From: Yinghuangia seranimata
GTDB lineage: Bacteria; Actinomycetota; Actinomycetes; Streptomycetales; Streptomycetaceae
Assembly: GCF_029953285.1 (NCBI RefSeq)
Contig: NZ_JASAOI010000040.1
Coordinates: 62,001 to 126,000, forward strand
DNA length: 64,000 nt
Direction of reading: 5' to 3'
Under the pieces are notes generated by a model that worked only from the letters and a program-made list of their open reading frames with translations, was not told the origin of the DNA and did not search any database. Position numbers and translations under genes: made by a program. Positions 7,891-33,427 of the stretch are shown piece by piece (positions within the stretch are counted from its first letter, which is position 1; each line of letters begins with the position of its first letter).

Positions 7891-7926
7891 CGTGCTCGTC
7901 CTTTCAGGGGGTTGCCACGAGAGGCC

Positions 7927-8778
7927 CTAGCTCTTGCTGCCGGTGAAGGCGATGCCCTGGATGAAGTGGCGCTGGAGCAGGATGAACGCGACGATCATCG
8001 GAGCGGTGGCCATCAGCGATCCGGCCATCAGCACCGAGTAGTCGGTGAAGTGCTCGCCCTGGAGGTTGGCGAGGCCGGCGGAGAGGGTCATCTTCTCCGG
8101 GTCGGTGTTGATCACCAGCGGGAACATCAGGTCGTTCCACGACCACATCGCGGTCAGGATGGTGAGTGCCAACAGGGCCGGCTTGGCCAGCGGGAGCGCG
8201 ATGCGCCAGAAGATCTGCCACGGGTTGGCCCCGTCCAGCCGTGCGGCCTCCTCGACCTCGTGCGGCAGCGCCATGAAGCTCTGGCGCATCAGGAAGGTGC
8301 CGAAAGCGGTGAACACCCCCGGGATGATCAGGCCCTTCAGGGAGTTCAGCCAGCCGAGGTCCTGGAGGAGCACGTACTGCGGGATGAGGAAGACCAGGCC
8401 CGGGACCATCAGCACCGACAGGAACAGGCCGAACAGCAACCCGCTCCCACGGAACCGCATCCGGGCGAACGCGTAGCCGGCCATCGACGAGAACAGCAGC
8501 TGGCCGACGGTGCGTGCGACCGTCACCAGCGCGGTGTTGAGGAACATCCGCCCGAACGGAAGCGAGTCGAACACCTTGCTGAAGTTCGACCACTGCCAGT
8601 GGTGCGGCAGGAGGGTCGGCGGCAGTCGGGTGGTCTCGGAGAACGGCTTGAGCGCCGTGACCACTTCCCAGAAGAAGGGGCCGAGGACCAGGACCGACGC
8701 GGCGACGAGCACCGTATGGGTGGCCACCGACCGGGCGCGGTGCCGCGGACGGGCCGAGCGGGATGCGTGCTCAGGCAT
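7927..8778 (-). CDS. carbohydrate ABC transporter permease (MalG-type)
   Basis: This 283-residue inner-membrane permease has about six transmembrane helices. The EAA loop is visible as EVEEAARLDGANPWQIFWRI, the site that contacts the ATPase. It ends with the QRHFIQGIAFTGSKS-like tail common in MalG homologues. It overlaps the upstream MalF-type gene by eight bases. No ATPase gene is present in the operon, which fits actinomycete sugar importers that share MsiK. The operon context points to import of the 6-deoxyhexose or an oligosaccharide containing it. Confidence 0.9.
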   Translation of the reverse strand: MPEHASRSARPRHRARSVATHTVLVAASVLVLGPFFWEVVTALKPFSETTRLPPTLLPHHWQWSNFSKVFDSLPFGRMFLNTALVTVARTVGQLLFSSMAGYAFARMRFRGSGLLFGLFLSVLMVPGLVFLIPQYVLLQDLGWLNSLKGLIIPGVFTAFGTFLMRQSFMALPHEVEEAARLDGANPWQIFWRIALPLAKPALLALTILTAMWSWNDLMFPLVINTDPEKMTLSAGLANLQGEHFTDYSVLMAGSLMATAPMIVAFILLQRHFIQGIAFTGSKS

Positions 8779-9745: not shown

Positions 9746-9749
9746 CGGG

Positions 9750-11048
9750 TCACTTTTCCTTGCTCAGCGCCGCGTTCATCAGACCGGCCATGGTCTTCGC
9801 GGCCGCCGTGAGATCGGCCTTGCCGTCCCAGGCGGAGGTGAATGTGGGTATCTCCTGGCTCATCCAGGCGGAGGTGTTCTTGGAGGCGGGGAACGGAACG
9901 GTGTACGGCAGCTCGTCCAGGAACGCCTTCAGGTGGAAGTCCGGAGCGGAGTCCACCCAGGCCTGCTGGGTGTTGTTGAAGGCCGGGATGACGCCGGCCT
10001 CCTTCGCCGTGATCTCCGCGGCCTCCTTGGACCCGAGGTAGGCGATGAAGGCGGCCGCCTCGTTCGGGTGCTTGGTCTTGGCGTAGGCGACGTTGGCCAG
10101 GCCGTGGATCACCACCGCCCGCTTGGCGCCCTGCGGCAGGACCGTGACGTCGATGTCCTTCTTCGCGGTGGACTGGGAGAACTCCAGGCTGTTCCAGCTG
10201 CCGCCGTAGTACATGGCGACCTTGCCCGACTCGAAGAACTGGCTCGGGAAGGTGTCGGTCATGGCCTTGACGTCCGGCGAGGATCCGTCCTTGATCAGGT
10301 CGGCCCAGAACTTGAGGCCCTCGATGGTCGCGGGCTGCTCGTAGCCCGAGGACGTCCCGTCGGCCGAGATGACCGAGCCGCCGGCCTGGAAGATGGTGTC
10401 GTAGAAGTTCTCCTGGTTGGCCAGCGGCGCCAGGATGCCGTACTGCTTCTTGGAGGCGTCGGTGAGCTTGCGGGCGGCGTCCCGGACCGTCTGCCACGTC
10501 CAGGTCTCGTCGGGGTACTTCACGCCCGCCGCGTCGAAGAGCTTCTTGTTGTACCAGAGCCCGACGGTGTCGAAGTCCTTCGGGACGCCGTACTGCGTCC
10601 CCTTGTACTTGTAGAGGTCGACCAGGCTCTGCGGGTAGTTGGAGAGGCTCGCGCCGTTGGCGGCGAGCTTGTCCGACAGCGGCAGCAGGATGCCGTTCGA
10701 CTCGTAGAGCTGGGCGTTGGGGCCGTTCATCCAGAACACGTCCGGCGCGCTGCCGCTGGTGGCGTCGGCCTGGAGCTTGGTCCAGTACTCCTTGTTCGCG
10801 GTGACCTGGATGTTCACCTTGATCGACGGGTGGGTCGCCTGGAAGGCGTCGATGATGTGCTGCATGGCCGGCTGCTGGGTCGCGTCCCAGATCCGGTAGG
10901 TGAGGTCGACCTCCTTGGCGCCGTCGGCACTGCTCTTCGAGTCGCTCGAACAGGCGGTGGCGCCGAGGGCCAGAGCGGTGGCCGCCGTGAGTGCCGCCCA
11001 GCGTCTGCCGTGCTGACCGGTACGTCCCTTGCTACGCCGAATGTGCAT
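9750..11048 (-). CDS. sugar-binding lipoprotein of ABC importer
   Basis: This is a 432-residue family 1 extracellular solute-binding protein. The signal peptide has an Arg pair (HGRRWAALTA), a hydrophobic core and a lipobox ending in ATAC, so it should be lipid-anchored outside the membrane. The mature part has the two-lobe features of sugar-binding proteins (for example DVFWMNGPNAQLYESNG and YYGGSWNSLEF). It heads the seven-gene minus-strand operon. A copy of the TCAGATCTA motif lies 38-52 bases before its start codon, shared with the AGE and secreted-protein genes at 29.5 kb. The ligand is not determined. Confidence 0.9.
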   Translation of the reverse strand: MHIRRSKGRTGQHGRRWAALTAATALALGATACSSDSKSSADGAKEVDLTYRIWDATQQPAMQHIIDAFQATHPSIKVNIQVTANKEYWTKLQADATSGSAPDVFWMNGPNAQLYESNGILLPLSDKLAANGASLSNYPQSLVDLYKYKGTQYGVPKDFDTVGLWYNKKLFDAAGVKYPDETWTWQTVRDAARKLTDASKKQYGILAPLANQENFYDTIFQAGGSVISADGTSSGYEQPATIEGLKFWADLIKDGSSPDVKAMTDTFPSQFFESGKVAMYYGGSWNSLEFSQSTAKKDIDVTVLPQGAKRAVVIHGLANVAYAKTKHPNEAAAFIAYLGSKEAAEITAKEAGVIPAFNNTQQAWVDSAPDFHLKAFLDELPYTVPFPASKNTSAWMSQEIPTFTSAWDGKADLTAAAKTMAGLMNAALSKEK

Positions 11049-11331
11049 TGGAACATCCCATCCGTAGTGCGCGTGTGGTTACGCGATATAGATCTGATAC
11101 ATCTCGGCCGCATCTGGGCTGGATCTACGGAGTTTTGCTGTGTCATGTGTGGCGAGGCGGCCATCCAGAACGGGTGCCGACGCGAGAAGCGGGCGAATCA
11201 GCCCAGCTGAGATACGGAGAGTCTGGAGTCGTCGGACCGTGGCGTCAAGAGTTTGGTTATGATTCACTGAGCACGCACCGCTTGATAAATATGAAACATC
11301 TAGAGCCGACAGGCGCGAAGACGCGCGTCGA
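11049..11331. promoter_or_regulatory. divergent promoter region with operator motif (11087-11099)
   Basis: This 283-base gap separates the importer operon and the second FadR-type regulator and is noticeably AT-richer than its surroundings. It contains TATAGATCTGATA at 11087-11099, which includes an exact reverse-complement copy of the TCAGATCTA motif found twice near 29.6-29.7 kb. The wider segment AGATCTGATACATCT has AGAT/ATCT arms. It is the likely binding site of the regulator encoded at 11332. Confidence 0.6.
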
Positions 11332-12126
11332 GTGACGGCAAGAGCGAAGGGGAGGGCCGTGGCCCGCTCAGAGAACAGATCCGCGACCGCGGGGGCGGAT
11401 GGTGCCTACCGCCCTGGCTACGAGGTCGCGGCCGAACGCATCCTCGAGTACGTCGTCAGCGCGGGACTTCAACCCGGCGCGCGGCTGCCCACGGAGAAGG
11501 ACCTCGCCGACGAGGTGCAGATGAGTCGGACGGTGGTCCGGGAGGCGGTGAAGATCCTCTCCGCCATCGGGCGGTTGTCCGTGCAGAAGGGCCGCGGCAT
11601 CTACGTGGCCGAGCCCGAGCAGCCCTCCTGGCAGACGTCGCTGACCACGTTCCTCCCCGCAGACCTGCGGCAGGTCGACGAACTGTTCGAATTCCGTCAG
11701 CACCTGGAGACCACCGCCGCCGGCCTGGCCGCGCGGCGAGCCACCCCGGCTCAGGTCAAGGCGGTACGCGAAGCCGCCCGGCAGTCCACCGCGGCGGCGC
11801 AGCAGGACGACATCGACGCCTTCACGTCCGCCGACGACGCCTTCCACGTCGGAATCGCGGAGGCGGCGGCCAACATGTTCTTCGCCTCCACCGTCAACGA
11901 CGTGCGGCGCCTGCAGCGCCAGACCACCGCCATCGGACTGGCCGGGGTCGCGGGCGGGTCGCTGCTGGTGGCCGCGGAGCAGCACGAGGCGATCGCCGCC
12001 GCCATCGCCGCCGGCGAGCCGGCCCGCGCCGAGGCGCTGATGACCGAGCACATTTGCATGACCGCCGAGCAGTTCCAGCGGGAGATCTGGCGTCGCGTCG
12101 TACCCGACAGCGACACCGACTCCTGA
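11332..12126 (+). CDS. FadR-family (GntR/FCD) transcriptional regulator of the sugar operon
   Basis: This protein of up to 264 residues has a winged helix at about residues 30-100 (PGARLPTEKDLADEVQMSRT, then VVREAVKILSAIGRL) followed by an FCD domain (DDAFHVGIAEAAANMF, EQHEAIAAAI). The start is uncertain: GTG at 11332 gives the full frame, while GTG at 11359 follows AAGGGG and would remove nine residues. It is divergent from the seven-gene importer/catabolic operon and followed 30 bases later by the dehydratase-like gene, so it is the obvious local regulator. FCD regulators of this kind usually sense sugar acids or keto acids, so a pathway acid is the likely inducer. Confidence 0.88.
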   Translation: MTARAKGRAVARSENRSATAGADGAYRPGYEVAAERILEYVVSAGLQPGARLPTEKDLADEVQMSRTVVREAVKILSAIGRLSVQKGRGIYVAEPEQPSWQTSLTTFLPADLRQVDELFEFRQHLETTAAGLAARRATPAQVKAVREAARQSTAAAQQDDIDAFTSADDAFHVGIAEAAANMFFASTVNDVRRLQRQTTAIGLAGVAGGSLLVAAEQHEAIAAAIAAGEPARAEALMTEHICMTAEQFQREIWRRVVPDSDTDS

Positions 12127-12156
12127 GCCCCGTCGTCCAGCACCGAAGGACAACCC

Positions 12157-13200
12157 GTGCGAATTACCGATGTGACCATCGAGTTGGTGGACCTGCCCGC
12201 CCAGCCGCCGTTCCGGTGGCGCGCCGGGCTTCCGGGCTCGGAGCCCGCGGTGGTGGGCGGCATCCTCCGCGTCCACACCGACGAGGGCCTGGTGGGCGAG
12301 GCGCACACGAGGCGCGGAGTGATCGTCGCCGACCTGGTCGCCCGTCGCATCCGCGAGGACCTCGTCGGCCGCGACCCCCTGGCGCGCGAGCTGTTGTGGG
12401 AGCGGCTGTGGGAGCTGGACCGGATCGAGGAGTTTCCGATCTATGCCCTCGGTCTGGTGGACGTGGCGTTGTGGGACCTGGCGGGCAAGGCGACCGCGCA
12501 ACCGGTTCACCGGCTGCTGGGCACCTACCGCGAGGCCATCCCGGCGTACGCGAGCACGGTCACCTTCGGCAGCGTCGAGGAGTACCTCGACGTCGCCACC
12601 CAGTGCCTGGAGTTGGGCTATGTCGGCATCAAGCTCCACGCCTGGGGCAACCCGGCGGCGGACGCGGACCTGTGCCGGAAGCTGCGGGAACACGTCGGTC
12701 CCGACGTTCCGCTGATGTACGACGGTTCGGCGGGATTCGACCTCGCCGACTCCATCGCTCTCGGTCACGTGCTCGCCGAAGCGGGCTACATCTGGTACGA
12801 GGAACCGATGCGCGAGTTCAGCGTGACCGCCTACCGCCGACTGGCCGAACGGGTCGCGGTCCCGCTGCTGGTCGCGGAGACCTCCGACGGCGCGCACATG
12901 AACACCGGCGACTTCATCGCGGCCGGCGCGGCGGGCGGGGTCAGGACCAGTGCGCAGTACAAGGGCGGCATCACCGGGGCGATGCGCATCGCGCATCTGG
13001 CCGACAGCTACCAGCTCAGGGCCGAAGTACACGGCAGCGGAGTGGTCAACGCCCATCTGTGCATGGCGATCCCCAACACCACGTACTACGAGTCCCTGGT
13101 CTACACAAACCCCGTGGTGCGCGAACCGTCTGTAGGCGCCGACGGTCTGGTGCAGGCCCCCACTGCCCCCGGCGTCGGGTTCGACCAGCCTGGCTGGTGA
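12157..13200 (+). CDS. enolase-superfamily (mandelate racemase-like) sugar-acid dehydratase candidate
   Basis: This 347-residue protein has an N-terminal capping domain and a TIM barrel. Metal ligands are Asp189 (MYDGS), Glu215 (YEEP) and Glu241 (VAETS). The usual KxK base motif is KLH (Lys159, His161). His292 (VHGSG) is present, but the Asp that normally pairs with it, five residues before the GGIT motif, is Ser265. By position in the gene set it should be the L-fuconate or L-rhamnonate dehydratase, the only missing step of the pathway, but the altered active site leaves room for a cycloisomerase or epimerase. GTG start after GAAGGA; the mutarotase gene follows 67 bases on. Confidence 0.78.
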   Translation: MRITDVTIELVDLPAQPPFRWRAGLPGSEPAVVGGILRVHTDEGLVGEAHTRRGVIVADLVARRIREDLVGRDPLARELLWERLWELDRIEEFPIYALGLVDVALWDLAGKATAQPVHRLLGTYREAIPAYASTVTFGSVEEYLDVATQCLELGYVGIKLHAWGNPAADADLCRKLREHVGPDVPLMYDGSAGFDLADSIALGHVLAEAGYIWYEEPMREFSVTAYRRLAERVAVPLLVAETSDGAHMNTGDFIAAGAAGGVRTSAQYKGGITGAMRIAHLADSYQLRAEVHGSGVVNAHLCMAIPNTTYYESLVYTNPVVREPSVGADGLVQAPTAPGVGFDQPGW

Positions 13201-18832: not shown

Positions 18833-20125
18833 ATGCACAGACCCCTCCGTCTGGCAGCACTCGTTGCGGCGGCCGCACTCACCGCAGCAGGGTGCGCTGC
18901 GGGCGGGAGTTCGGTCTCCGGCGGGGGCGGAGACAAGGTCACGATGACGTTCCTGACCTTCGAGACGCCGAACCTCAACGCCAAGTATTGGGACGACGCG
19001 ATCGCCCGGGCCTCGGCGAAGGTACCCGGAGTCACGATCAAGAAGCTGGTCGCGCCGAGCATCGACCGCACCGGGTACGCCAAGCAGCTCGCCGCCACGG
19101 GCCAGCTGCCCGACATCATGATCGCGGTGAACCCGAACGGGTTCGCCCAGTCGGGCCAGCTCGCCCCCTGGACCGACCAGGAACTGGCCGACTTCACCTA
19201 CCCGCACGCGAACCCGATCGGCGGCAAGGTCTACGTTCTGCCGTTCAACACCCAGCCCACCCCGCTGGTGTACTACAACAAGCAGGACTTCGCGAAGGCC
19301 GGCATCGCCGCTCCGCCGACCACCTACGCCGACTTCCTCGCCGACTGCGCCAAGCTCAAGGACGCCGGAATCAACCCGATCGTCGTCGGCGGCGGAGGCA
19401 ACGACACCTTCGCCGCGACGTACCCGTGGGTCGCCTCGGTCGGCACCGACGTGTACCAGGGCACCCCGGACTGGCTGTCCCAGCGGGCCGACGGCAAGGT
19501 CAAGTTCGACAGCCCCGACTTCACCAAGGCCACCCAGAAGGTCGCCGACCTGGCCAAGGCGGGGTACATCGACACCGCGGGTCTGAGCCGGTCCTACGCG
19601 GACACCGAACAGGCGTTCCGCGACAACAAGGGCGCCATGTACCCGATGGGTTCGTGGTTCGCCGCCTCCGCCGACCAGACCAAGCCCCCGTTCGACGTCG
19701 GCGTCTTCGCCTGGCCGTCGGACGACGGACGGCCGACCGTGCCCGCCTATACGGGCGGCGGCATGAGCGTCAGTTCCAAGGCGCCCAACGTGGACCTGGC
19801 GAAGAGGTGGGCGCTGGCGTTCATGGAGGACAAGCAGAACCTCGACGCGAGCGTGCACGCGGACGGCTCGATCATCGCGATCAAGGGCTACATACCCCCG
19901 ACCGACATGGGCCCGGTCTACAACGAGACGTTGAGGGCCTACAACGAGGCGGCGGCCAGCGGCAACGTGGTCAACGCCTTCAACTCCGAAACGGGCGACG
20001 GCTCCCTGCCGCCCGGCATGTCCGACGTCGTGAACTCGGCAGCCGTCGACCTCATCAGCCGGCACAAGTCCGCCCAGGACACCGTCTCGTTCCTGGACGC
20101 CCAGTACGACAAGGCCAACCGCTGA
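18833..20125 (+). CDS. sugar-binding lipoprotein of second ABC importer
   Basis: This is a 430-residue family 1 solute-binding protein with a signal peptide and the lipobox TAAGC near residue 21. The mature part shows DIMIAVNPNGFAQSGQLAPW and MGSWFAASADQTKPP, typical of sugar-binding lobes. The ATG follows AAGGACCAGACC. It heads a six-gene operon: binding protein, two permeases, FAH hydrolase, aldo-keto reductase and LutA-like protein. It is unrelated in detail to the lipoprotein at 9750, so the two importers probably carry different ligands. Confidence 0.9.
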   Translation: MHRPLRLAALVAAAALTAAGCAAGGSSVSGGGGDKVTMTFLTFETPNLNAKYWDDAIARASAKVPGVTIKKLVAPSIDRTGYAKQLAATGQLPDIMIAVNPNGFAQSGQLAPWTDQELADFTYPHANPIGGKVYVLPFNTQPTPLVYYNKQDFAKAGIAAPPTTYADFLADCAKLKDAGINPIVVGGGGNDTFAATYPWVASVGTDVYQGTPDWLSQRADGKVKFDSPDFTKATQKVADLAKAGYIDTAGLSRSYADTEQAFRDNKGAMYPMGSWFAASADQTKPPFDVGVFAWPSDDGRPTVPAYTGGGMSVSSKAPNVDLAKRWALAFMEDKQNLDASVHADGSIIAIKGYIPPTDMGPVYNETLRAYNEAAASGNVVNAFNSETGDGSLPPGMSDVVNSAAVDLISRHKSAQDTVSFLDAQYDKANR

Positions 20126-20188
20126 TCCCGAGTGTGGAGCGGCACCGCCCGCCGCGCTCACCCCACGCCCCGACCGCTGGAGTTCACG

Positions 20189-21133
20189 GTGGCCGCACGT
20201 TCCACCCCTCTTCGCCACGCACCACCGGCCGGACCCGGTCCCGCAGCCCGGCGTGCCCGGCGGTGGCCGAAGGTTTCCCGGGCCCTGCTGTTCGCGGCGC
20301 CCGGACTGGTCATCTACACGGCTTTCGTGCTGGTGCCACTGATCACCAACGTCGCGAACAGCTTCACCGACCTCAACACCTTCCGTCCGTCGACCCACTG
20401 GGTGGGTCTCGCCAACTACCGGGCGCTCCTCGACGACGCGGACTTCCACCAGGCGCTGCACAACACCGTGGTGTTGACGCTGATCGTGACGATCCTGCCG
20501 AACGTGGCGGGCCTCGGCATCGCGATGCTGCTGGATCGGAGCGGCTGGTTCACCAACGCCCTTCGCAGCGTGTTCTTCGTGCCGACCGTGCTGAGCGCGG
20601 TGGTGGTCAGCGTGGTCTGGCAGAAGATCCTCACCGACGACGGCCTGTTCAACCGGGCGCTACACGCGGTCGGCGTCGGTTCGCCGCCGGGGTGGCTGTC
20701 CGATCCGGACCTGGCGCTCTATTCGATCGCCTTCATCATGTCCTGGCAGGTCCTGGGCTTCTGCGTCGTGGTGTACCTGGCGGGACTGCAGAGCATCCCG
20801 GCGGAACTCCACGAGAGCGCCGTGATCGACGGCGCCGGCGCCCTCGCCAGCTTTCGGCACGTGACGTGGCCGCTGCTCGCGCCGGCGGTCACGATCAACA
20901 CGGTCATGCTGATGATCACCGGGTTCAAGGCGTACGACTACATCCAGGTCATCACCAACGGCGGGCCCGGCAGCGGCACCACGAGCACGATCGCGTTCTC
21001 CATCGTGCAGACCGCGTTCACCGGAAACCACGTGGGCTACGCGGCGGCGATGGCGACCGTCATGTTCGTGGGCATCGCGCTGCTGTCCGCCGGGGCGCTG
21101 ACGGTTCTGCAGCGGCGCGAGGTGACGCTGTGA
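20189..21133 (+). CDS. carbohydrate ABC transporter permease (MalF-type), second system
   Basis: This 314-residue permease has about six membrane helices, starting with LLFAAPGLVIYTAFVLVPLI, and the EAA loop ELHESAVIDGAGALASFRHV. The GTG at 20189 was chosen because TGGAG lies six bases upstream; the ATG at 20132 would add 19 residues without similarity. Its stop overlaps the next permease start (GTGA at 21130-21133). Confidence 0.88.
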   Translation: MAARSTPLRHAPPAGPGPAARRARRWPKVSRALLFAAPGLVIYTAFVLVPLITNVANSFTDLNTFRPSTHWVGLANYRALLDDADFHQALHNTVVLTLIVTILPNVAGLGIAMLLDRSGWFTNALRSVFFVPTVLSAVVVSVVWQKILTDDGLFNRALHAVGVGSPPGWLSDPDLALYSIAFIMSWQVLGFCVVVYLAGLQSIPAELHESAVIDGAGALASFRHVTWPLLAPAVTINTVMLMITGFKAYDYIQVITNGGPGSGTTSTIAFSIVQTAFTGNHVGYAAAMATVMFVGIALLSAGALTVLQRREVTL

Positions 21134-21960
21134 GCTCGAGCACCGCAAGCTGGCTCCGGCCGCTGGTATCGCTGTTCCTCGCGGCGTGCTTCTTCCTGCC
21201 GCTCTACCTCGTGCTGGTCAACGTGTTCAAGCCGAGCCAGGACATCGTGGCCCACCCGGCCGCCCTGCCCGTCCCGGCGACCACCGCCAACCTGCAGGCC
21301 GTGCTGGACCGCCCCGACCGCCTCTTCTGGTACGGGCTGGTCAACAGCGTGGAGATCACCGCGTTCTCGGTCACGATCGTGGTGGTGCTGTCCGCGATGC
21401 TCGGCCACTACCTGGCACGCACGGCGGGCCTGGCCGCGAAGGTCACCCTGCTGATCCTGTTGAGCGGGCTCACCATCCCGTCCGCGGTGATCATCTCCTC
21501 GCTGACCAGGGTGCTGGACTCCTTCGGCCTGATGGGCACGATCCCGGGCATCGTGCTGGCCGACGTCGGCTATTACCTGCCCTTCGGCGTGTTCGTGTTC
21601 ATGGGGTTCGTCAAGACCGTGCCCGTAGAGATGGAGCAGGCCGCCGCGATCGACGGCGCGGGATACTTCCGCACGTTCTGGCAGATCGTGTTCCCCCTGA
21701 TGCGGCCGGCGACCGCCAGCGTCTTCATCTTCCTCGGCGTATGGATCTGGAACGACTTCCTCAACCCGCTGATCATTCTCGGCCCCGACACCGGAACCAC
21801 GGTCACCGTCGGCGTCTACCGCGCCATCGGCGAGCACCAGACCGACTTCGGGGCCCTGTTCGCCTTCATGTTCCTCGCATCGTTGCCCGTCCTCGTGCTC
21901 TTCCTGCTGTTCCAGAAGAGCTTCGTCAAGGGCCTCACCTCAGGAGCCACCAAAGGATGA
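21130..21960 (+). CDS. carbohydrate ABC transporter permease (MalG-type), second system
   Basis: This 276-residue permease has about six helices, an EAA motif VEMEQAAAIDGAGYFRTFWQ and the typical C-terminal LFQKSFVKGLTSGATKG. The start is GTG at 21130, overlapping the MalF-type stop. With 18833 and 20189 it makes a complete channel and receptor, again without an ATPase, so it also depends on a shared MsiK-like protein encoded elsewhere. Confidence 0.9.
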   Translation: MSSSTASWLRPLVSLFLAACFFLPLYLVLVNVFKPSQDIVAHPAALPVPATTANLQAVLDRPDRLFWYGLVNSVEITAFSVTIVVVLSAMLGHYLARTAGLAAKVTLLILLSGLTIPSAVIISSLTRVLDSFGLMGTIPGIVLADVGYYLPFGVFVFMGFVKTVPVEMEQAAAIDGAGYFRTFWQIVFPLMRPATASVFIFLGVWIWNDFLNPLIILGPDTGTTVTVGVYRAIGEHQTDFGALFAFMFLASLPVLVLFLLFQKSFVKGLTSGATKG

Positions 21961-24735: not shown

Positions 24736-27201
24736 ATGGACCACTCCGACATGCTTGGGGGAGGAGGCCGACCGGCTCCTTTCGACATGCTCCGTGTCGC
24801 CACCGCGGCATTGGACGACAGCGGGCGTATTGTCGGCTGGTCGAACGAGACGACCCGCCTGCTCGGCTGGGAACCCCCGGAGGTTCTCGGCCTGCCGGCG
24901 ACCGAACTACTCGCCTCCGACCAGGACGTCTCCATGCTCCCCGCCCGCGGACGGGGTGACCCTGCCGGCACGTCCGCCGAGGTCGTGGAGCTGGTGCTCA
25001 GGGTCCGCCACCGGGACGACGGCGTACGGTTGCTCGGAGTGACCGCCACGCCCCTGACCCACGCGTCCGGCGGTGCGGGGTGGCTGCTGTCCGCCATCGA
25101 CCTCGCCCGTACGTCGTGGTGGGACAACAGCCGCTCGGTGCTGGAGCGCTTTCTCACCCACTCCCCCTACGGCATCGCCGTGCTCGACACGGAGCTGAGG
25201 TACGTCTGGATCAACAAGACCCTCGAGCGCATGGCCGGGGTCCCGCTGGGCGAACGCATCGGCCGCCGGATGCACGAGGTGCTCCCGGGGCTCTCGCCCT
25301 ACGCGGTGGAGGACCAGATGCGAGCCGTCCTCACCACAGGTGTCCCCATCCTGGACTTCGAGTACCAGGGCCACATCCCCGCCGACCCCGAACACGAGCA
25401 CGCCTTCTCGACGTCCTTCCTGCGACTGGACGATGAGGACGGCCGCATCGCCGGAGTCTGCTACATGGGTGTCGACATCACCGAGCGTCGTCGCACCCGG
25501 CAGCGCCTGGCCCTGCTCACCGAGTCCGGCGCCCGCATCGGCATCGCGCTCGACTTCGAGACGACGTCCTGCGCGCTGGCGTCGGTCGCCGTGCCCCAGC
25601 TGGCGGACTTCGCCGCCGTGGACCTGTTCGACGGGGTCCTGCGGGGGGAGGAGCCCGCTCCCCCCGCCACTGCGGGCAGCCGCCTGGAGCTGCGCCGCAT
25701 GGCGCACGCCTCGGCCCGCCCCGGGGACCCCGAGGTCGTGGCGGGAGTGGGAGCCGAACCGAACTACCCGCCCGCCTCGCCCATGATCCAGTGCCTGCTG
25801 CACGGCAGCGGAGTGCTCCAGACGCGACTCCATGCCAACGGCCTGTCGTGGCTCGCCGACGATCCCGCGCGCAGAGACGTCGTCGACGCCTGGGACTTCC
25901 ACTCGTTGATCGCCGTGCCGCTGCGCGCCCGTGGCATCGTGCTGGGGCAGATGGTCCTGCTGCGCGCGAAGCGGTCGCAGCCGTTCGATCCGGAGGACCT
26001 CGCGCTGGCCGAAGAACTGGCGTCACGCGCCGCGCTGGGGCTGGACAACACGCGCATGTACACGCGGGAACGCGAGACGGCCCTGGCGCTGCAGCACGAC
26101 CTGCTGCCGCAGGTCCTCCCGGCCGCCTCCTCACTGGAGGTCGCCCACCGCTACATCCCGGCGAACGCACGAGGCGGGGTCGGAGGCGACTGGTTCGACG
26201 TCATTCCCCTCTCGGGCGCCCGCGTTGCGCTGGTCGTGGGCGACGTGACCGGGCACGGTCTCACCGCCGCAGCCACCATGGGACGGCTGCGAACAGCTGT
26301 CCACACCCTCGCGGACATAGACCTGCCGCCGGATGAGTTGCTGGCGCATCTGGACGACCTCGTCCTGCGTCTTGTCGACGAGGAATCGGCGCTCCAGCAG
26401 TGGCACCCCGCAGCGTTTGCCGCCTTGGGGACGACCTGCCTCTATGCGGTCTATGACCCCGCCACACGGCAATGCACCATGGCCCGGGCCGGCCATCTGC
26501 CGCCGGCGATCGTCACTCCGGACGGGGAGGTCACCCTGCCGGACCTCCCGGCCGGTCCCCCGCTCGGAATCGGGGCGCTCCCCTTCGAGTCCGCCACGGT
26601 GCACCTGCCGGACGGCGCACTCCTGGCGTTGTTCACCGACGGCTTGCTGCTCGGGCACAGCGCGGACTACGACACCGCCATCGAGCGACTGCGCACCGCA
26701 CTCGGAAGCGCCGCCGGATCCCTGGAAGCCACATGCGACGCCGTGGCCGCGGCAATGCTGACCGGCGTCCAGAACGACGACGTCGCGCTGCTGCTGGCCC
26801 GCCCCCACGGGCTCAGCGCGGACCACATCGCCACGTGGGACCTCCGCAGCGACCCCGCCATCGTGTCCGAGGCGAGGTCCCTCGCCTCGGACACGCTCAG
26901 CGCGTGGGGCCTGGACGACCTGGCCTTCACGACGGAACTGGTGGTCAGCGAACTGGTCACCAACGCGATCCGCTACGCCTCCGAGCCGGTGCAACTACGC
27001 CTGATCCGGCGTGAGAACGTCGCACTCATCTGCGAGGTCTCCGACGGCAGCAGCACCTCACCCCGGCTGCGCCACGCGCGCACCACCGATGAGGGCGGAC
27101 GCGGGCTCTTCCTCATCGCCCAGCTCACCAGCCGCTGGGGCACCCGCTACACGTCAGGCGGGAAGGTCATCTGGGCGGAACAGGCGATCGAGCCCTTGTG
27201 A
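24736..27201 (+). CDS. PAS-PAS-GAF-SpoIIE phosphatase with C-terminal HATPase domain
   Basis: This is an 821-residue signalling protein. A PAS-like segment at about 10-100 is followed by a second PAS (about 135-250), GAF (about 265-440), a PP2C/SpoIIE phosphatase (about 455-690; GGVGGDWFDV and VGDVTGHG hold the metal Asp residues) and a Spo0F/RsbW-like ATPase domain (about 700-820; SELVTNAIRYA, DEGGRGLFLI). Streptomycetes use such proteins in partner-switching control of sigma factors, dephosphorylating anti-anti-sigma proteins. The ATG at 24736 follows GGAGG with seven-base spacing. It is monocistronic; its last 48 bases overlap the convergent kinase gene. The signal sensed is unknown. Confidence 0.9.
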   Translation: MDHSDMLGGGGRPAPFDMLRVATAALDDSGRIVGWSNETTRLLGWEPPEVLGLPATELLASDQDVSMLPARGRGDPAGTSAEVVELVLRVRHRDDGVRLLGVTATPLTHASGGAGWLLSAIDLARTSWWDNSRSVLERFLTHSPYGIAVLDTELRYVWINKTLERMAGVPLGERIGRRMHEVLPGLSPYAVEDQMRAVLTTGVPILDFEYQGHIPADPEHEHAFSTSFLRLDDEDGRIAGVCYMGVDITERRRTRQRLALLTESGARIGIALDFETTSCALASVAVPQLADFAAVDLFDGVLRGEEPAPPATAGSRLELRRMAHASARPGDPEVVAGVGAEPNYPPASPMIQCLLHGSGVLQTRLHANGLSWLADDPARRDVVDAWDFHSLIAVPLRARGIVLGQMVLLRAKRSQPFDPEDLALAEELASRAALGLDNTRMYTRERETALALQHDLLPQVLPAASSLEVAHRYIPANARGGVGGDWFDVIPLSGARVALVVGDVTGHGLTAAATMGRLRTAVHTLADIDLPPDELLAHLDDLVLRLVDEESALQQWHPAAFAALGTTCLYAVYDPATRQCTMARAGHLPPAIVTPDGEVTLPDLPAGPPLGIGALPFESATVHLPDGALLALFTDGLLLGHSADYDTAIERLRTALGSAAGSLEATCDAVAAAMLTGVQNDDVALLLARPHGLSADHIATWDLRSDPAIVSEARSLASDTLSAWGLDDLAFTTELVVSELVTNAIRYASEPVQLRLIRRENVALICEVSDGSSTSPRLRHARTTDEGGRGLFLIAQLTSRWGTRYTSGGKVIWAEQAIEPL

Positions 27202-28146
27202 CCACGCCCAAGTCTCCGCGCGGCCTCCCGTGACGAGGAGTGCCCTCAGCTCGGCCGCCGTGGGCGGATCGGCACCGGGGCGGGCGCAGGTGAGTGCGGA
27301 TATCAGGGCGGCCTCGGTCAGCAGATCGTCGAGCAGGCCGGTGTCGAGACGGGAGGCCAGGTCGGCGGCACCCAACAGGGCCCGGCGGTACAGGGCGTTC
27401 AGAAGGCCCGAGGTGAACGCGTCGCCCGCGCCGATGGTGTCGGCGACCGTCACCGGCACGGCCGGGGCGGTCACGGAGCCCGCGCGGCAGACAGCGTACG
27501 AACCCTGCGCTCCGCGCGTCACGACCACCACGGCGGGACCGGAGGCGAGCCAGTCCGCCGCGATGTCGGTGACGTCCCGCGCGGGATGGAGCCAGGCGAG
27601 GTCCTCCTCGCTCACCTTGACGACGTCGGCCAGTGCGACCAAGGCCTCGACGCGTCCGCGCGCGGACGCCGGATCGCCCATCAGCGACGGGCGGCAGTTC
27701 GGGTCGTACGACACCGTCATCCGCCCGCGCGCCCGCTCGATCAGGGTCCCGACGGCGAACGCGCCCGGCGCGAGTGTGGCGGCGATCGAACCTGTGTGCA
27801 GGCACAGGGAGTCGGCCGCGGCTGCTGCGGTCACGGCCGCGCCGAGGTCCCAGGTGATGTCGAACTCGTAGGACGCCACCCCGGACGCGCCGACGCGGGC
27901 CCGTGCGACGCTGGTCGAGCCGTCGTGCACGGACTGCGGTGCGACCGCAACCGAGCTCGCCGCAAGGTGCTTTGCGAGCAGCCGTCCGTATGCGTCGCGC
28001 CCGAACGATGTGACCAGCCGCACCGGCGCGCCCAGCCGTCCCAGGCCGACCGCGACGTTGGCCGGGCTCCCGCCCGGATGCGCCACCGGCTCCCCGCCGG
28101 CGGGGTGGACGATGTCGACGAGTGCCTCTCCGACAACGGTGATCAC
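27154..28146 (-). CDS. PfkB-family carbohydrate kinase (fructokinase-like)
   Basis: This 330-residue ribokinase-fold protein has an N-terminal VVGEALVDIV strand, the GGSPANVAVGLGRLG sugar-binding signature and the DTIGAGDAFTSG catalytic motif. It fits fructokinases that act on free fructose. The GTG start overlaps the stop of the AGE-family gene upstream (GTGA), so the two are made together: AGE would turn mannose (or another aldose) into the ketose and this kinase would phosphorylate it. Its 3' end overlaps the SpoIIE-phosphatase gene by 48 bases tail to tail. Confidence 0.88.
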   Translation of the reverse strand: MITVVGEALVDIVHPAGGEPVAHPGGSPANVAVGLGRLGAPVRLVTSFGRDAYGRLLAKHLAASSVAVAPQSVHDGSTSVARARVGASGVASYEFDITWDLGAAVTAAAAADSLCLHTGSIAATLAPGAFAVGTLIERARGRMTVSYDPNCRPSLMGDPASARGRVEALVALADVVKVSEEDLAWLHPARDVTDIAADWLASGPAVVVVTRGAQGSYAVCRAGSVTAPAVPVTVADTIGAGDAFTSGLLNALYRRALLGAADLASRLDTGLLDDLLTEAALISALTCARPGADPPTAAELRALLVTGGRAETWAWSQGLDRLFRPDDLPA

Positions 28147-29417
28147 GGCCCCGCCTCCCCCGGCCCCTCGACGACGAGCCCGGTCGGCATGCGGCTGTGT
28201 CGCCCTGCAGTCCTCCGCCGCAACGTCTCTGCCGCGGTGGGTGAGACCGGCAGGAGCGGCAGGAGCGTCGCCTGGAGCGCGTGGTACGCGTCAGGTTTGC
28301 CCTTCCATACCGTGGCCGACGGTCGGCCGTCCGTGTCGAGTTCGTGGTGCCAGCTGCCGCGGGTCCGGTCGAGGAAGTGGGTGTCGGCGTGGGTCCACCA
28401 CGCGCGGTACAAGGCGTCGTAGCCGGGGTCGCCCGTCGCCTGACGCAGCGCTGCGGCGGCCAATACGGCCTCGGCCAGGACCCAGTGCATGCGGGTCGAG
28501 ACGACCGGCCTTCCGTCCCAGTCGACGGTGTACACGAAGCCCGCGCTGCCGTCGGCGTTCCAGCCCTCACGTACGGCGGCGGCGAACAGCGCCGCCGCGT
28601 CGTCGCGCAGCCACGCCGGCGAATCCGGTAGGGACGCGGACAGGGAGACCAGGAGCCGAGCCCACTCGAACCAGTGCCCGATCGTGGCGCCATAGGGCCG
28701 GAACGGGTCGTCGGGACGCGTGCGGTTGTAGTCGGGCAACGGGCGCCACATGGCGTCGAAGTGCTCGATCAGCCGCCAGGAGTTCCGGCGCGCGTAGACG
28801 TGCACCACGCGCTCGGCTATGCGCAGCGCGCGACGTCGCCAGACGGCGTCGCCCGTCGCGTCAGCCGCGGCCAGGAAGCACTCCACGGCGTGCATGTTGC
28901 TGTTGGCACCGCGATACGCCTCGCAGGTCGTCCACGCGCGGTCCCACGACTCGACACACGCGCCTTCGCCCTCGCTCCAGAACCGTAGATCGAGGATTCG
29001 CAGTGCCTCGCCGAGGAGCTCGTCGGCCCCGGGGCGTGCGGCGACCGCGGCGGTGGAGGCGGCCAGCACGACGAAGGCGTGGTCGTAGGCACGCTTCTCG
29101 CTCGTCAGCGGCCGTCCGTCCCTGTCCACCGCCGGAAACCAGCCGCCGTGTTCGGCATCGCGCAGCAGTCCGGACAGCGCGGCGACTCCGTGGTCGACCA
29201 GCGGTGCGGTGTCGGGGAGCCCACGCAGGTGGGCGAGGGCGAACACATGCGTCATGCGCGCGGTGATCCACGTGTGCACGACACCGTCGGGCGTCGGTAC
29301 GCCCTCGTCGTCGAGCCAGGCGAAACCGCCGCCGTCCCGGCGGGCGGCCCGCGCGAACTCGACGATGCGTGTGAACTCGGCGTCGAGCCACGGTTCCTGC
29401 CCGGGTGACCTTGGCAT
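28143..29417 (-). CDS. AGE-family sugar isomerase (mannose isomerase/N-acylglucosamine 2-epimerase type)
   Basis: This 424-residue protein has the (alpha/alpha)6-barrel repeats of the AGE/YihS family, with conserved HTWITARMTHVFALAHL, YDHAFVVLAAS, NSNMHAVECFLAA, EHFDAMWRP and GHWFEWARLL; the His and Glu/Asp residues in these are the catalytic set. Members interconvert mannose and fructose or glucose, or epimerise N-acyl sugars. The ATG at 29417 follows GTGGAGGCTGCA; the longer frame adds 38 residues of promoter translation. The fructokinase-like gene downstream suggests a free ketose product. A near-match (TTCGGATCTAT) and an exact copy of the TCAGATCTA motif lie 117-158 bases upstream. Confidence 0.87.
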   Translation of the reverse strand: MPRSPGQEPWLDAEFTRIVEFARAARRDGGGFAWLDDEGVPTPDGVVHTWITARMTHVFALAHLRGLPDTAPLVDHGVAALSGLLRDAEHGGWFPAVDRDGRPLTSEKRAYDHAFVVLAASTAAVAARPGADELLGEALRILDLRFWSEGEGACVESWDRAWTTCEAYRGANSNMHAVECFLAAADATGDAVWRRRALRIAERVVHVYARRNSWRLIEHFDAMWRPLPDYNRTRPDDPFRPYGATIGHWFEWARLLVSLSASLPDSPAWLRDDAAALFAAAVREGWNADGSAGFVYTVDWDGRPVVSTRMHWVLAEAVLAAAALRQATGDPGYDALYRAWWTHADTHFLDRTRGSWHHELDTDGRPSATVWKGKPDAYHALQATLLPLLPVSPTAAETLRRRTAGRHSRMPTGLVVEGPGEAGP

Positions 29418-29821
29418 TGCAGCCTCCACGTCGAAACCGCCCCTCGTTGCCACTGACCTGTCCGCGCCCGCTGGCAGCCCTGCCGAGGACCATGTGTCGC
29501 CCCGTTCCGCGGACACCGCCGAACGATACATGGTTCGGATCTATTTTGACACTTGCCACCAATGAGTCAGATCTAAAGCCTTGACGCTGAGACATCCGAC
29601 TTCCAGACTCGTGCCACCTTGACGAGACACAACTCATGGGCAGCAGCACTCAGTTCCCAGATTTGCTGGGGCCGGCGAGAGCCGGGCTCCATGTTCGACA
29701 TGACGTGCGCAGCGGCGTCGACGGTTTGGCGGCAGTCAAAGAATCAGATCTATCTGCCACACGGCTTCTCGGTCGCGACGGTGGATCGCGGCGACATCGA
29801 CTCGACAGAGGTGATACCGAG
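29418..29821. promoter_or_regulatory. divergent promoter region with repeated TCAGATCTA operators
   Basis: This 404-base gap separates the AGE-kinase operon and the secreted-protein gene and holds no gene. Exact 9-base copies lie at 29567-29575 and 29744-29752, and a near-match TTCGGATCTAT at 29534-29544. The copy at 29744 extends into CAGATCTATCTG, whose CAGAT/ATCTG arms are inverted. The same motif occurs before the importer operon at 11087-11099. In such GC-rich DNA these AT-rich sites are striking, and they suggest one regulator for all three units. Confidence 0.65.
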
Positions 29822-32800
29822 ATGACAATCCGCAGAGGCGCCGTTGCCTGTCTGCAGGCGATGGTTCTCGCCACAGCAGCGGTGGGGGTGGCCGGCCCCA
29901 CGGCGTCGGCCGCCCGTGCCACCTACACCATCCGGGCCGGTTCGCTGATGGTCGCGCTGGACGGCTCGGGGACGGTGACCGACCTGGTGGACCTGGCGAA
30001 CGGCCGCGACTACGCGAGCGGGGCCCATCGCTCGCCGCTGATCAAGCTGGTTGCCGACGGCGCGCAGCAGACGCCCACGTCCCTCTCGTACGACGTGCCG
30101 TCGTCCACCTACACGTTCGAATTCGGGGGGAAGGGGATCAAGGTCGCCGTCCGGGCGGTGTCCCTGCCGGGGTACGCGACGCTCGAGGTCACCAGCGTCA
30201 ACGCGCCTGCCGGGGTGGACGTGCAGACCCTGTTGTGGGGCCCGATCACCACGGGCATCACCCAGACCGTGGGCGAGACGGTCGGCGTGGTCCACGACAA
30301 CGACTTCGCGATCGGGATCCACGGGCTCAACGACAAGACCGTCGGAGGCTGGCCCGACGAGTTCGACAAGCTCAGTTACCCCGACGGGCCGGTGAAGGTC
30401 GGCACGCCGTCCAGCTGGCCCTTCGGCTGGTTCAGTGCCCACCAAACCACCTGGGGCAGCATCCTTCAGGCGTACACCTACGACTACACGAAGACGCGGC
30501 AGCGGTACGTGGGTTGGGGGGACGTGAACGAGCCCAATGTGGCGGTCCCTCCGCTCAGCGGCGACGACGCGGTGATCAAGGGCTCGAAGATCGCCCTGTT
30601 CGGTACCGCGCCGGGCGACGTCCTCGGCACGCTGTCCCGGATCGAGACCGGTGAAGGCCTGGTGCACACCAGCATCGACGGGCAGTGGGGCAAGACCTCA
30701 CAGGGGGCCTCGCAGTCCTTCCTCGTGCTCGGCGACCTGAACACCAAGAACGCCTCGCAGGCGAGCACGTACGCCAAGGACGCCGGGATCCGCTACATCT
30801 ACTCCCTGCCGAACGCGGTGGGGCCCTGGCAGTCGACCGGGCACTATCAGTTCGACTCCTCCTTCGGCGGCTCCGACGCGGGCGCGGCCGGGCTGGTCCA
30901 CACGGCGGCGGCCGGTGGGGAGTCGGTCGGCGTGCACACGCTGTCCAACACCATCGACACCGACGACCCGTACGTGACGCCGGTGCCGGACCCGGGGCTG
31001 GCGACCATGGGTTCGGTCAAACTGACCCGGCCGCTGGACGCGTCCGCCAAGACCGTCTACGTCGACGGCGACTCCGTCTTCACCGGCGGGTATGGGAAGG
31101 CCGTTCGCATCGGCGACGAGCTGATGACCTTCGGCGCGGCAACGAAGGTGGCCGGCTCCTCGAACGAGTACCAGGTCACCCTCGAGAACCGTGGCGGATG
31201 GGGTACCGCTGCGGCCGCCCACCCCGCGGGCGCCGACCTGGCCCGCATGCAGTGGTACGCCTACGGCCAGTTCGACGCCGGCATGCCGATGATCCCCAAG
31301 ATCGCCGAGCGGTTCGCGCAGATCTTCAACGCCACCGGGATCAAGGCGATGTCCTTCGACGGCCTCGAGACCGCCACCCTCACCGGATACGGGACCTTCG
31401 CCACGAACAAGCTGGTGAACGGCATGTACCGCCGAATCACCGACACCGACGACTTCATCTCCGAAGCGAGCAACGTCCTCCCCGGCATCTGGGACGCGGT
31501 GGGCCGGGCGAGCTGGGGAGAGACCTGCTGCACTCCCCTGCAGGAACGCTACGACCACCAGGCCTACTACCAGCGCAACTACCTGCCCAACATGATGGGT
31601 TGGGTCTCCTACAGCCCGACCGACTCGGTCCTCTCCCAGGAGTGGCAGCTCTCCAAGATGGCCGCCTTCAACGCAGGCGCCGGGCTTCAGGCCAGCGTGT
31701 CGGCCTTCAACAACAGCGGCAACACCGCCGGCGTGCTGGACGCCTGGAAGCAGTGGGAGGCCGCCCGTAACGCGCATGCCTTCACCGACGCGCAGATGAA
31801 GGCGATGCAGGACCCCAACTCGTACTGGCATCTGGAGAACACGGATCCCGGCAAGGCGTGGAACCTCTACGAGGTCCAGTACCCGGCGAACGCGCTGAGC
31901 GCGCCGAGCGACGGCACCCCGAGCAGCTGGCAGTACACCAACACCCACAAGTCACAGCCCCTGCAGTTCCAGCTCCAGGCATCCGGCGGAAGCGTCGTCA
32001 ACCCGTCGATCACCCTGGGCGGGCAGACCGTGACCTTCAACACCACCGTACCGCCGGGCGGTTACCTGGTGGCCGACGGCACCGCCACCGCGAAGGTGTA
32101 CGACGGCACCTGGCACGAGCTCGCTTCCGTCACGGCACAGGGCTCGGCGCACTACACCGAGGGCACCCAGACCATCAGCTACCGCGCGGCCGGCTCCGCC
32201 GGATCGACCGCCAAGATCCGCTTCCTCAGCGTCGGCGCCCCCCAGAAGGTCACGGCGCCGATCGTGATCGCCGCGCCCGCCACTGCGGCCCGCGGCGGCA
32301 CCACGACAGTGACCACCACGTACACCAACACCGGCAGCGGCCCGGTGAAGGACGCCGAGATCGGTTTGGCCGCCCCTGACGGCTGGACGGTCAAGGCAGT
32401 CGGTCGGGCTTCCTTCCCACACATCCCGCCGGGTAAGACGGTCACCGCTACCTGGCAGGTCACCGCGCCCGCGAACGCCGCCGTCGGCGACGGCTGGCTG
32501 GTCGCCCACATCATGTCGGCCGGGGCACGGACCAGTTCGGAGGCGACCGCGCGGATCACCGTGCCCGACCCTCTTTCGGTCCACGGTCCTCAGATCGTCG
32601 AGGCCGGCAGCAGCGCCACGGTGACCACCACGTACGTCAACGGCACCTTGCAGGCCCTCTCCAATCTAACCGTCACCCTTGCCCCGCCCGCCGGTTGGAG
32701 TGCCAAAGCCACCACACCCGCGAACTTCCCCTCCCTGGGCGCCGGTCAGACAGCCACCACCACCTGGCAGCTGACGGCCCCCGCGAACGCCGCGCCCGGC

Positions 32801-33427
32801 ACGGCCACGTACACGGCGAGCGCGGACTATCAGAACACGCCCGTCAAGGACCAGGTCAGCGGCGAATTCAAGGTGCCATACCCGTCACTGAGCAGCGCGT
32901 TCGACAACGCCGGCATCAGCGACGACGGCAACCCGGCCGCGGCCAACCTGGACGGCGGCGGTCGGAGCCTGTCCGCACAAACGCTGGCGGCCGCCGGCCT
33001 GACCCCCGGCGCGACGGTGTCGCACGACGGCTTCTCCTTCACCTGGCCGAACACCGCGCCCGGCAGCAAGGACAACGTCGTCGCCAACGGCCAGATGATC
33101 AAGCTCGGCGGCTCCGGCGGAAAGCTCGGCATCCTCGCCACCAACACCGGCGGCCCGGGCTCCGGCACCGGCGTCGTCACCTACACCGACGGGAGCACCC
33201 AGAACTTCACGCTCGCGGTCTCCGACTGGTGGGACAACTCCGCGGCGGCCGGGGCCGACATCCTCGCCACCCTGCCACACCGCAACGCCAGCCAGGGAGG
33301 CGTCACCGACCACCCCGTCAGCATCTACGCCTCGACCGTTCCCCTTCAGGCGGGAAAGACCGTCGCCTACCTGACCTTGCCGGCCTCCGGCGGCCAGACG
33401 CACATCTTCGCGACCGCAGTCGGCTGA
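29822..33427 (+). CDS. large secreted protein, candidate glycan-active enzyme with NEW3-like domains
   Basis: This 1201-residue protein begins with a signal peptide (hydrophobic core LQAMVLATAAVGVAG, cleavage after an Ala-rich stretch near residue 33). The first 700 residues or so are aromatic-rich and contain aspartate/tryptophan clusters typical of carbohydrate-active enzymes (GWPDEFDKLSYPDG, MSFDGLETATLTGYG, GETCCTPLQERYDHQAYYQR), with an embedded small beta domain (YVDGDSVFTGGYGKAVRIGD). Two NEW3-like repeats follow at about 820-920 and 920-1020 (both with a VTTTYxN strand and a TATWQ or TTTWQ strand), then a C-terminal beta-sandwich of about 180 residues. I cannot place the catalytic part in a known family. 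Its motif-bearing promoter ties it to sugar uptake. Confidence 0.8.
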   Translation: MTIRRGAVACLQAMVLATAAVGVAGPTASAARATYTIRAGSLMVALDGSGTVTDLVDLANGRDYASGAHRSPLIKLVADGAQQTPTSLSYDVPSSTYTFEFGGKGIKVAVRAVSLPGYATLEVTSVNAPAGVDVQTLLWGPITTGITQTVGETVGVVHDNDFAIGIHGLNDKTVGGWPDEFDKLSYPDGPVKVGTPSSWPFGWFSAHQTTWGSILQAYTYDYTKTRQRYVGWGDVNEPNVAVPPLSGDDAVIKGSKIALFGTAPGDVLGTLSRIETGEGLVHTSIDGQWGKTSQGASQSFLVLGDLNTKNASQASTYAKDAGIRYIYSLPNAVGPWQSTGHYQFDSSFGGSDAGAAGLVHTAAAGGESVGVHTLSNTIDTDDPYVTPVPDPGLATMGSVKLTRPLDASAKTVYVDGDSVFTGGYGKAVRIGDELMTFGAATKVAGSSNEYQVTLENRGGWGTAAAAHPAGADLARMQWYAYGQFDAGMPMIPKIAERFAQIFNATGIKAMSFDGLETATLTGYGTFATNKLVNGMYRRITDTDDFISEASNVLPGIWDAVGRASWGETCCTPLQERYDHQAYYQRNYLPNMMGWVSYSPTDSVLSQEWQLSKMAAFNAGAGLQASVSAFNNSGNTAGVLDAWKQWEAARNAHAFTDAQMKAMQDPNSYWHLENTDPGKAWNLYEVQYPANALSAPSDGTPSSWQYTNTHKSQPLQFQLQASGGSVVNPSITLGGQTVTFNTTVPPGGYLVADGTATAKVYDGTWHELASVTAQGSAHYTEGTQTISYRAAGSAGSTAKIRFLSVGAPQKVTAPIVIAAPATAARGGTTTVTTTYTNTGSGPVKDAEIGLAAPDGWTVKAVGRASFPHIPPGKTVTATWQVTAPANAAVGDGWLVAHIMSAGARTSSEATARITVPDPLSVHGPQIVEAGSSATVTTTYVNGTLQALSNLTVTLAPPAGWSAKATTPANFPSLGAGQTATTTWQLTAPANAAPGTATYTASADYQNTPVKDQVSGEFKVPYPSLSSAFDNAGISDDGNPAAANLDGGGRSLSAQTLAAAGLTPGATVSHDGFSFTWPNTAPGSKDNVVANGQMIKLGGSGGKLGILATNTGGPGSGTGVVTYTDGSTQNFTLAVSDWWDNSAAAGADILATLPHRNASQGGVTDHPVSIYASTVPLQAGKTVAYLTLPASGGQTHIFATAVG

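Follow-up and report, generated by a model that had tools for sequence, protein, structure and literature searches.

A candidate secreted α-glycosidase of Yinghuangia seranimata with a glycoside hydrolase-type predicted fold, encoded in a sugar-catabolic island

We describe here a gene of Yinghuangia seranimata (Streptomycetaceae) whose product we take, on balance, to be a secreted retaining α-glycosidase, probably directed at galacto-configured linkages in a fucose-containing glycan, and to be the founder of a new family. The gene lies in a stretch of 64,000 nucleotides (contig NZ_JASAOI010000040.1, positions 62,001 to 126,000), called the window below and numbered from its first letter. The proposal is built on the gene, its conservation, its predicted fold, its neighbourhood and the operator-like sites around it, all of which were computed directly. 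A first-pass annotation of the same DNA had described a 1201-residue secreted protein with two NEW3-like domains, and this outline holds. The open reading frame (ORF) of 1201 codons runs on the forward strand of the window from 29822 to 33427, with its ATG at 29822 and its stop codon at 33425-33427; residues 1-31, judged by eye, fit a signal peptide; and NEW3 (PF10633) matches in two stretches (E 1.9e-29), the better one at residues 824-890. The same frame is already open from 29636, but the start at 29822 agrees with that of the Kitasatospora homologue, and a purine-rich stretch lies upstream of it.

A putative catalytic region without a database family

The region expected to carry catalysis, residues ~34-680, was compared with several collections. 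Pfam returned only one sub-threshold row at E ≤10, over a domain inserted in the predicted barrel, and nothing was found in NCBIfam at E ≤0.1 or among PDB sequences at E ≤10. A profile of 12 homologous sequences matched no glycosidase in the PDB, its rows being ribosomal proteins at E 0.17 or worse. The models for the glycoside hydrolase (GH) families GH101 (PF12905) and GH36 (PF02065, Melibiase) are missing from the Pfam list of the protein at E ≤10, as are GH97 (PF10566), GH129 (PF11308) and GH114 from that list. Direct searches of the own genome gave no matches for PF10566 or for PF11308, but the latter search matched nothing anywhere, controls included. GH97 appeared in one of 12 relatives, at E 0.027; the weak GH97 matches of relatives (L113-L115) were set aside: hhalign shows no relationship in the catalytic region, and the blastp matches belong to the C-terminal part. 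The earlier statement that the catalytic region could not be matched to a known family stands for Pfam, NCBIfam and PDB sequences, and the confident family hit to residues 40-700 that had been named as counter-evidence was found in none of the three.

By a new family we mean one that is new against Pfam, NCBIfam and the PDB, not against the CAZy/dbCAN models. It is therefore conceivable, if somewhat unlikely in our judgement, that the protein is a new member of an existing CAZy family that has no Pfam or NCBIfam model. Some recent CAZy families do lack a Pfam model. Such families are still arising, as the galactosaminidase family GH191 (PMC12054363), set up in 2025, illustrates. The unmatched PDB sequences, whether searched with the single sequence or the profile, argue the other way, as does the open-licence literature, in which the terms used retrieved no account of this protein family.

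Predicted fold, kinship to GH101 and candidate catalytic residues

The structure prediction and fold search that had been suggested as a check gave the protein a predicted fold like that of glycoside hydrolases. The AlphaFold model of residues 31-822 (792 residues), built from a 41-row alignment, has a mean predicted local distance difference test score (pLDDT) of 83.9 and a predicted template modelling score (pTM) of 0.79. Its predicted layout is a β-sandwich, a (β/α)8 barrel interrupted by a β domain behind strand β3, and one further β domain. Foldseek with the whole model placed GH101 EngBF first (E 7.8e-13), followed by FpGalNase (5e-11) and GH101 SpGH101 (5.4e-10). The next rows are of GH31 and GH97 type, with named entries at E about 2e-8; these families share the sandwich-plus-barrel plan, whereas the protein has no Pfam match to them and scores 0.8% or less with a GH97 profile. 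Against viral models the first Foldseek row was a Bacillus phage G protein, and 16 of the 50 rows were named tail or tail-fibre; these rows may be due to the inserted domain. This domain resembles Rcc01698_C, which we take to be a phage-tail-type domain: five of 12 family members match it at E ≤1 (best 1.6e-6), and the window protein reaches 19.7 bits against a cut-off of 27.

Profile comparison with hhalign, whose values are probabilities, was made against 25 GH101 proteins from one genus of the same family (L057-L081). The value was 43.5% for the whole region, 56.3% without the insert and 62.2% when the sandwich was compared by itself; with random four-sequence subsets of GH101 the three ranges were 45-49%, 55-60% and 60-66%. 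None of the other profiles tested exceeded 0.8%, and the reversed query stayed at or below 1.3%; the GH36 profile gave 0.3% or less, and no member was found from which to make a GH129 profile. Judged from these alignments, kinship to GH101 would be confined to the N-terminal sandwich, at a probability of about 60%. True GH101 proteins were present among 29 of 100 relatives of one genome (G107), all of one genus, and a direct search with PF12905 matched one of 149 genomes of a draw from the phylum and gave no match in the own genome.

Conservation in the 41-row alignment points to a candidate catalytic pair. D513 is placed at the end of predicted strand β4 and E548 on predicted β5, the latter missing in L044 alone; D513 and E516 are invariant in all 41 rows, and the serine S511, two residues ahead of D513, is invariant as well. 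In GH101 the nucleophile is an Asp on β4 and the acid/base a Glu on β5; aligned GH101 sequences have the Asp ahead of the Glu, the order of D513 and E548. E567, in the motif SWGE, had been considered as acid/base since it was invariant in 12 sequences; it is absent from four of 41 rows, and E548 is for that reason preferred. Related arrangements are on record: a designed GH101 version has its Asp and Glu 32 residues apart (PMC10949244), NagBb of GH129 and GH101 have similar catalytic domains (PMC8106489), and in the galactosaminidases of GH114, GH135, GH166 and GH191, which are barrels as well, an Asp and a Glu likewise act as a pair (PMC12054363).

We infer from these observations an activity, a catalytic pair, a linkage, a substrate and a regulator, as follows. 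The GH101-like N-terminal β-sandwich and the (β/α)8 barrel would form the catalytic unit, with the NEW3 and C-terminal domains as accessories. D513 would attack the anomeric carbon and E548 would serve as acid/base; with this pair the configuration at the α-linkage should be retained. The linkage would most likely be galacto-configured, that is α-galactose, α-galactosamine or α-N-acetylgalactosamine, or else another linkage of a fucose-bearing glycan. The oligosaccharides released would enter through the neighbouring importers and pass to a Gfo/Idh enzyme and a deoxyhexose pathway, and the whole set may be under a shared operator, probably that of the nearby GntR protein.

Several of the results weigh against this reading. 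The first seven Foldseek rows have TM-scores of only 0.24-0.43 and root-mean-square deviations of 15.6-18.7 Å. VIA-align, which re-aligns Foldseek's rows and shows 50 of them, ranked GH36 highest for the whole model: its Z is 16.5 (463 residues, 5.5 Å) against 16.1 for GH13 rows, and GH101 is not among the best 50 rows. With a model of the barrel only, the top Foldseek row was pyruvate kinase; the leading VIA-align group (18.9-18.0) held GH36 at 18.9 and FpGalNase at 18.7, ahead of GH13 (from 17.8) by about one Z unit only. The barrel-only model did not decide among these three. GH101 was not among the best 50 barrel-only rows of either program, which excludes nothing. Single GH101 sequences gave hhalign values of just 4-13% for the whole region, 5-19% without the insert and 7-23% for the sandwich, and the GH101 profile is deeper than those of the other glycosidases, which hold 2-5 sequences each. 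A sequence match of the barrel to GH101, expected once the insert was removed, was absent (0.3% or less). E607, in the helix after predicted β6, is a further invariant acidic residue.

The protein resembles GH101 (EngBF, SpGH101) in the top Foldseek rows of the whole model, in the sequence kinship of the sandwich, in the sandwich-plus-barrel architecture, with the low TM-scores given above, and perhaps in the placing of D513 and E548 on predicted β4 and β5. It differs in lacking a PF12905 match and any detectable sequence kinship in the barrel, in the absence of GH101 from the 50 VIA-align rows, and in having the inserted β domain and motifs of its own (SFDGLE, ISE). FpGalNase, an α-galactosaminidase of Flavonifractor plautii described as having a GH36 domain (PMC11762096), is second to EngBF by fold, is close in the barrel comparison and acts on α-linked galactosamine; it shares about 10% identity with the window protein and gives no sequence match at E ≤10.

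The same data bear on an α-galactosidase of GH36/GH27 type, in which D513 would still be the nucleophile and the acid/base would lie elsewhere than at E548. Such enzymes also combine a sandwich with a barrel. GH36 leads the VIA-align rows of the whole model and, with FpGalNase, heads the barrel list, and the invariant E607 could be thought of in this connection. The motifs speak against it. In FpGalNase D463 is preceded by K461, a feature in common with GH36 (PMC11762096), and the invariant S511 and D513 stand at those positions here, so that the KxD before the candidate nucleophile is missing. The alignment and the model hold no conserved Asp after predicted β6, and both the Melibiase match and a GH36 profile score above 0.3% are wanting. 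We regard this alternative as unlikely.

Homologues, neighbouring genes and operator-like sites

When 296 genomes were drawn from the phylum, the gene turned up in the own genome alone. Among near relatives eight of 150 match, the own genome included; one of the seven others is a 60-residue piece only and the remainder have 40-75% identity. Two Embleya plasmids among 72,556 plasmid records carry copies. A scan of genome contigs for conserved motifs matched 57 stretches, of which 45 were confirmed, at no fewer than 41 loci, a number to be read as a lower bound. The 41 come from eight genera: Streptomyces (27), Micromonospora (5), Embleya (3), Burkholderia (2), and Kitasatospora, Catenulispora, Kribbella and Nonomuraea with one each. 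Identity to the window protein falls as low as 38%. In a quick IQ-TREE run on 41 rows, the window protein forms a clade of its own with the proteins of Kitasatospora paracochleata and Catenulispora pinisilvae (SH-aLRT 100). Many homologues have, by eye, a Sec- or Tat-type leader, and none is apparent on the Burkholderia copies. These stand on long contigs in two Burkholderia genomes (L046, L052), in the same gene order, and both lack E567; they probably result from transfer from actinobacteria. In Streptomyces sp. MZ04 (L056) the homologue is split into short frames.

The neighbourhood was compared over 43 loci, 42 fetched and the window itself. Importer permeases were found at 30 of them, a binding protein at 28, ROK proteins at 21, Gfo/Idh oxidoreductases at 20, the dehydratase at 14 and GntR regulators at 13. 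The control consisted of 24 stretches of the own genome, hence of one genome only, with 461,644 bases. Relative to it, the homologue loci are enriched in permeases (29/41 vs 1/24), binding protein (27/41 vs 0/24), ROK (20/41 vs 1/24), Gfo/Idh (19/41 vs 0/24), dehydratase (13/41 vs 0/24) and GntR (12/41 vs 0/24). There was no clear enrichment of aldo-keto reductases (6/41 vs 0/24), LacI (6/41 vs 2/24), short-chain dehydrogenases/reductases (SDR; 4/41 vs 7/24) or lactonase-like proteins (3/41 vs 0/24), nor of GH20, GH36, GH59, GH3 or GH38 in the same comparison. At 15 of 42 loci an importer or Gfo/Idh gene lies directly upstream of the gene, on the same strand and no more than 400 nucleotides away, which lends support to the earlier idea that the product sugars are imported. 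At six the gene is divergent from the binding-protein gene. The other 21 are placed otherwise; two of them (L025, L038) show that order too, with gaps of 442 and 482 nucleotides, and in two (L017, L023) the gene is behind the dehydratase. Relatives in the PDB include DgpA and a glucuronide-3-dehydrogenase for the Gfo/Idh protein, and chitin and arabino-oligosaccharide binders for the binding proteins.

A motif in the promoter, reported earlier as shared with the importer and an "AGE-kinase" operon, was recovered. The 8-mer CAGATCTA occurs three times in the 64 kb against 0.18 expected, a count reached by 0 of 100 shuffles: at 11089(-), ahead of the importer operon 6721-11048(-), and at 29568 and 29745, ahead of the candidate glycosidase gene and of the divergent isomerase/kinase operon. 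The latter, the "AGE-kinase" operon, encodes a protein resembling D-mannose isomerase (533.7 bits against a cut-off of 600) and a PfkB protein closest to fructokinase (128.7 bits against a cut-off of 450). The consensus of the operator-like sites is ATGnATCAGATCTAT. The 10-base pattern TC(A/G)GATCTAT matched the window three times and the 43 homologue loci 11 times, always between genes and never inside one, and had no match in the 461,644 control bases. In other genomes, with other genera among them, it stands ahead of homologues of the gene in four loci (L014, L020, L024, L050), in two of which (L014, L024) it is also ahead of the divergent binding protein; elsewhere it precedes the importer (L016), the dehydratase (L032, L034, L039) or a GH20 gene (L040). 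In L016 the genes behind the site are, in this order, those for the binding protein, two permeases, Gfo/Idh and the homologue. Other genes follow the site of L028 and one of the two in L050. The nearby GntR/FCD protein would be the likely binder of these sites.

These associations are to be read with some reserve. The homologue loci are related and come partly from the same genomes, so that p-values overstate the associations; the 10-base pattern was fixed after its matches had been seen; and the 8-mers CAGATCTA and CGGATCTA have eight genic besides 12 intergenic matches in L014-L056. Outside the window, TCAGATCTA has five more matches at four places of the genome; two of these places are genic and the other two precede SDR-like genes (assigned by eye), and a wider regulon is not suggested. 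Separately, positions 18584-18612, in the gap that separates the second importer from a ROK regulator gene, form a perfect inverted repeat of 14 bp (AGTTTTTTGATTCA / TGAATCAAAAAACT), and downstream of the candidate glycosidase gene, on the other strand at 33885-35102, a metallophosphoesterase-like protein is encoded (PF00149, 19.3 bits, cut-off 21.5).

Table 1. Features of the candidate glycosidase gene and its surroundings in the window.
Feature	Position	Strand	Basis
Candidate secreted glycoside hydrolase, 1201 aa	29822..33427	+	ORF and homologues
Signal peptide, residues 1-31	29822..29914	+	By eye: basic start, hydrophobic core, ASA-AR
N-terminal β-sandwich, residues ~35-220, the part with putative sequence kinship to GH101	29924..30481	+	Model, hhalign
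Predicted (β/α)8 barrel, residues ~285-680	30674..31861	+	Models, fold searches
β domain inserted between barrel strands 3 and 4, residues ~392-477, Rcc01698_C-like	30995..31252	+	Pfam scan
D513, candidate nucleophile, end of strand β4, 41/41 rows	31358..31360	+	Alignment, model
E548, candidate acid/base, strand β5, 40/41 rows	31463..31465	+	Alignment, model
Predicted post-barrel β domain, residues ~685-820	31874..32281	+	Model
First NEW3 domain, residues 824-890	32291..32491	+	PF10633
Second NEW3-type domain, residues ~930-996	32609..32809	+	Position from overlapping adaptin-C2 row
C-terminal domain	32939..33424	+	No Pfam; relative elsewhere in same genome
Operator-like site TCGGATCTAT	29535..29544	+	
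Related site CAGATCTA	29568..29575	+	
Operator-like site TCAGATCTAT, about 70 bp ahead of start codon	29744..29753	+	
Same operator-like site, between first importer operon and divergent GntR gene	11088..11097	-	
First importer (binding protein, two permeases) and Gfo/Idh oxidoreductase	6721..11048	-	
GntR/FCD regulator and mandelate-racemase-type dehydratase	11359..13200	+	
Second importer (binding protein, two permeases), type accompanying most homologues	18944..21960	+	Start from gene caller
Divergent operon: PfkB kinase and D-mannose-isomerase-like protein	27154..29417	-	NCBIfam

Residues 996-1201 have no Pfam match at E ≤0.01; the C-terminal relative in the same genome shares 37% identity over query residues 954-1191. 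The genes of the two binding proteins occupy 9750-11048 and 18944-20125, and that of the GntR protein 11359-12126.

Substrate and significance

The identity of the released sugars we infer from the neighbour genes. The window encodes an L-fucono-1,5-lactonase-like lactonase, an aldo-keto reductase, an SDR, the racemase-type dehydratase and an FAH-type hydrolase, all five with displayed NCBIfam matches below the curated cut-offs, whereas the rhaM mutarotase, a LutB-type protein and the GntR/FCD regulator are above their Pfam cut-offs. Bacteria can oxidise L-fucose or L-rhamnose to pyruvate and lactate, and this gene set fits such a route. A SIS-type isomerase, a ROK kinase, a PfkB-like protein (by eye) and a class II aldolase fit galactosamine. 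The neighbour genes suggest several sugars, which counts against the main reading. For galactosaminogalactan as substrate, SIS, ROK, PfkB and aldolase genes follow the homologue in L025 and are present elsewhere in the window, and one of 41 loci is too few. Mannose, considered on account of the divergent isomerase/kinase operon and of a gene group of unassigned family (c13) beside ROK kinases at five of 41 loci, was likewise set aside as not significant. Just upstream of the window, the own genome (L086, C18:46000-62000) holds a second set of such genes with an ABC importer; its FAH hydrolase is assigned by Pfam, and its SDR, aldo-keto reductase, lactonase-like, mutarotase-like and GntR proteins are mostly named by eye.

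An α-L-fucosidase, or another enzyme that releases the deoxyhexose directly, would suit an island with lactonase-like, dehydratase, SDR and FAH-type proteins and lactate utilisation genes, and the operator-like site links the candidate glycosidase gene to importer and dehydratase. We nevertheless find it quite unlikely, since the enzymes nearest in fold have D-galacto or D-gluco substrates and since GH95 and a GH29-like protein have genes of their own in L041 and L045; the other glycosidases near single homologues also include GH84, GH31, GH65 and GH35. A protein that only binds glycans, has no catalytic activity and supplies the importer would accord with the NEW3 and C-terminal accessory domains and with a catalysis that is so far predicted only, but is very improbable given the conservation of D513, E516 and E548 through eight genera at identities down to 38%.

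We therefore retain the secreted retaining α-glycosidase as the preferred reading. A fuller version of it can be put forward only tentatively: a new GH family that is kin to GH101, whose secreted member is an α-glycosidase, endo-acting on a heteroglycan of fucose and galactosamine, with dedicated importers for the oligosaccharides, a Gfo/Idh enzyme, encoded nearby and often in the same orientation, that would cleave or oxidise them inside the cell, and an operator shared across genera, amounting to an undescribed actinobacterial uptake system.

The family has no Pfam model and occurs in Streptomyces, Micromonospora, Kribbella, Embleya and others, often beside sugar importers. FpGalNase, among its nearest folds, has been studied for the conversion of blood group A to O (PMC11762096). 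With its candidate catalytic pair defined, a new branch can be put to the test directly and might prove useful, and the conserved operator offers a handle on the inducer. GH101 enzymes release O-glycans; if our reading is true, the protein would bring a further activity to the α-glycosidase superfamily and would name the missing first step of this catabolic island.

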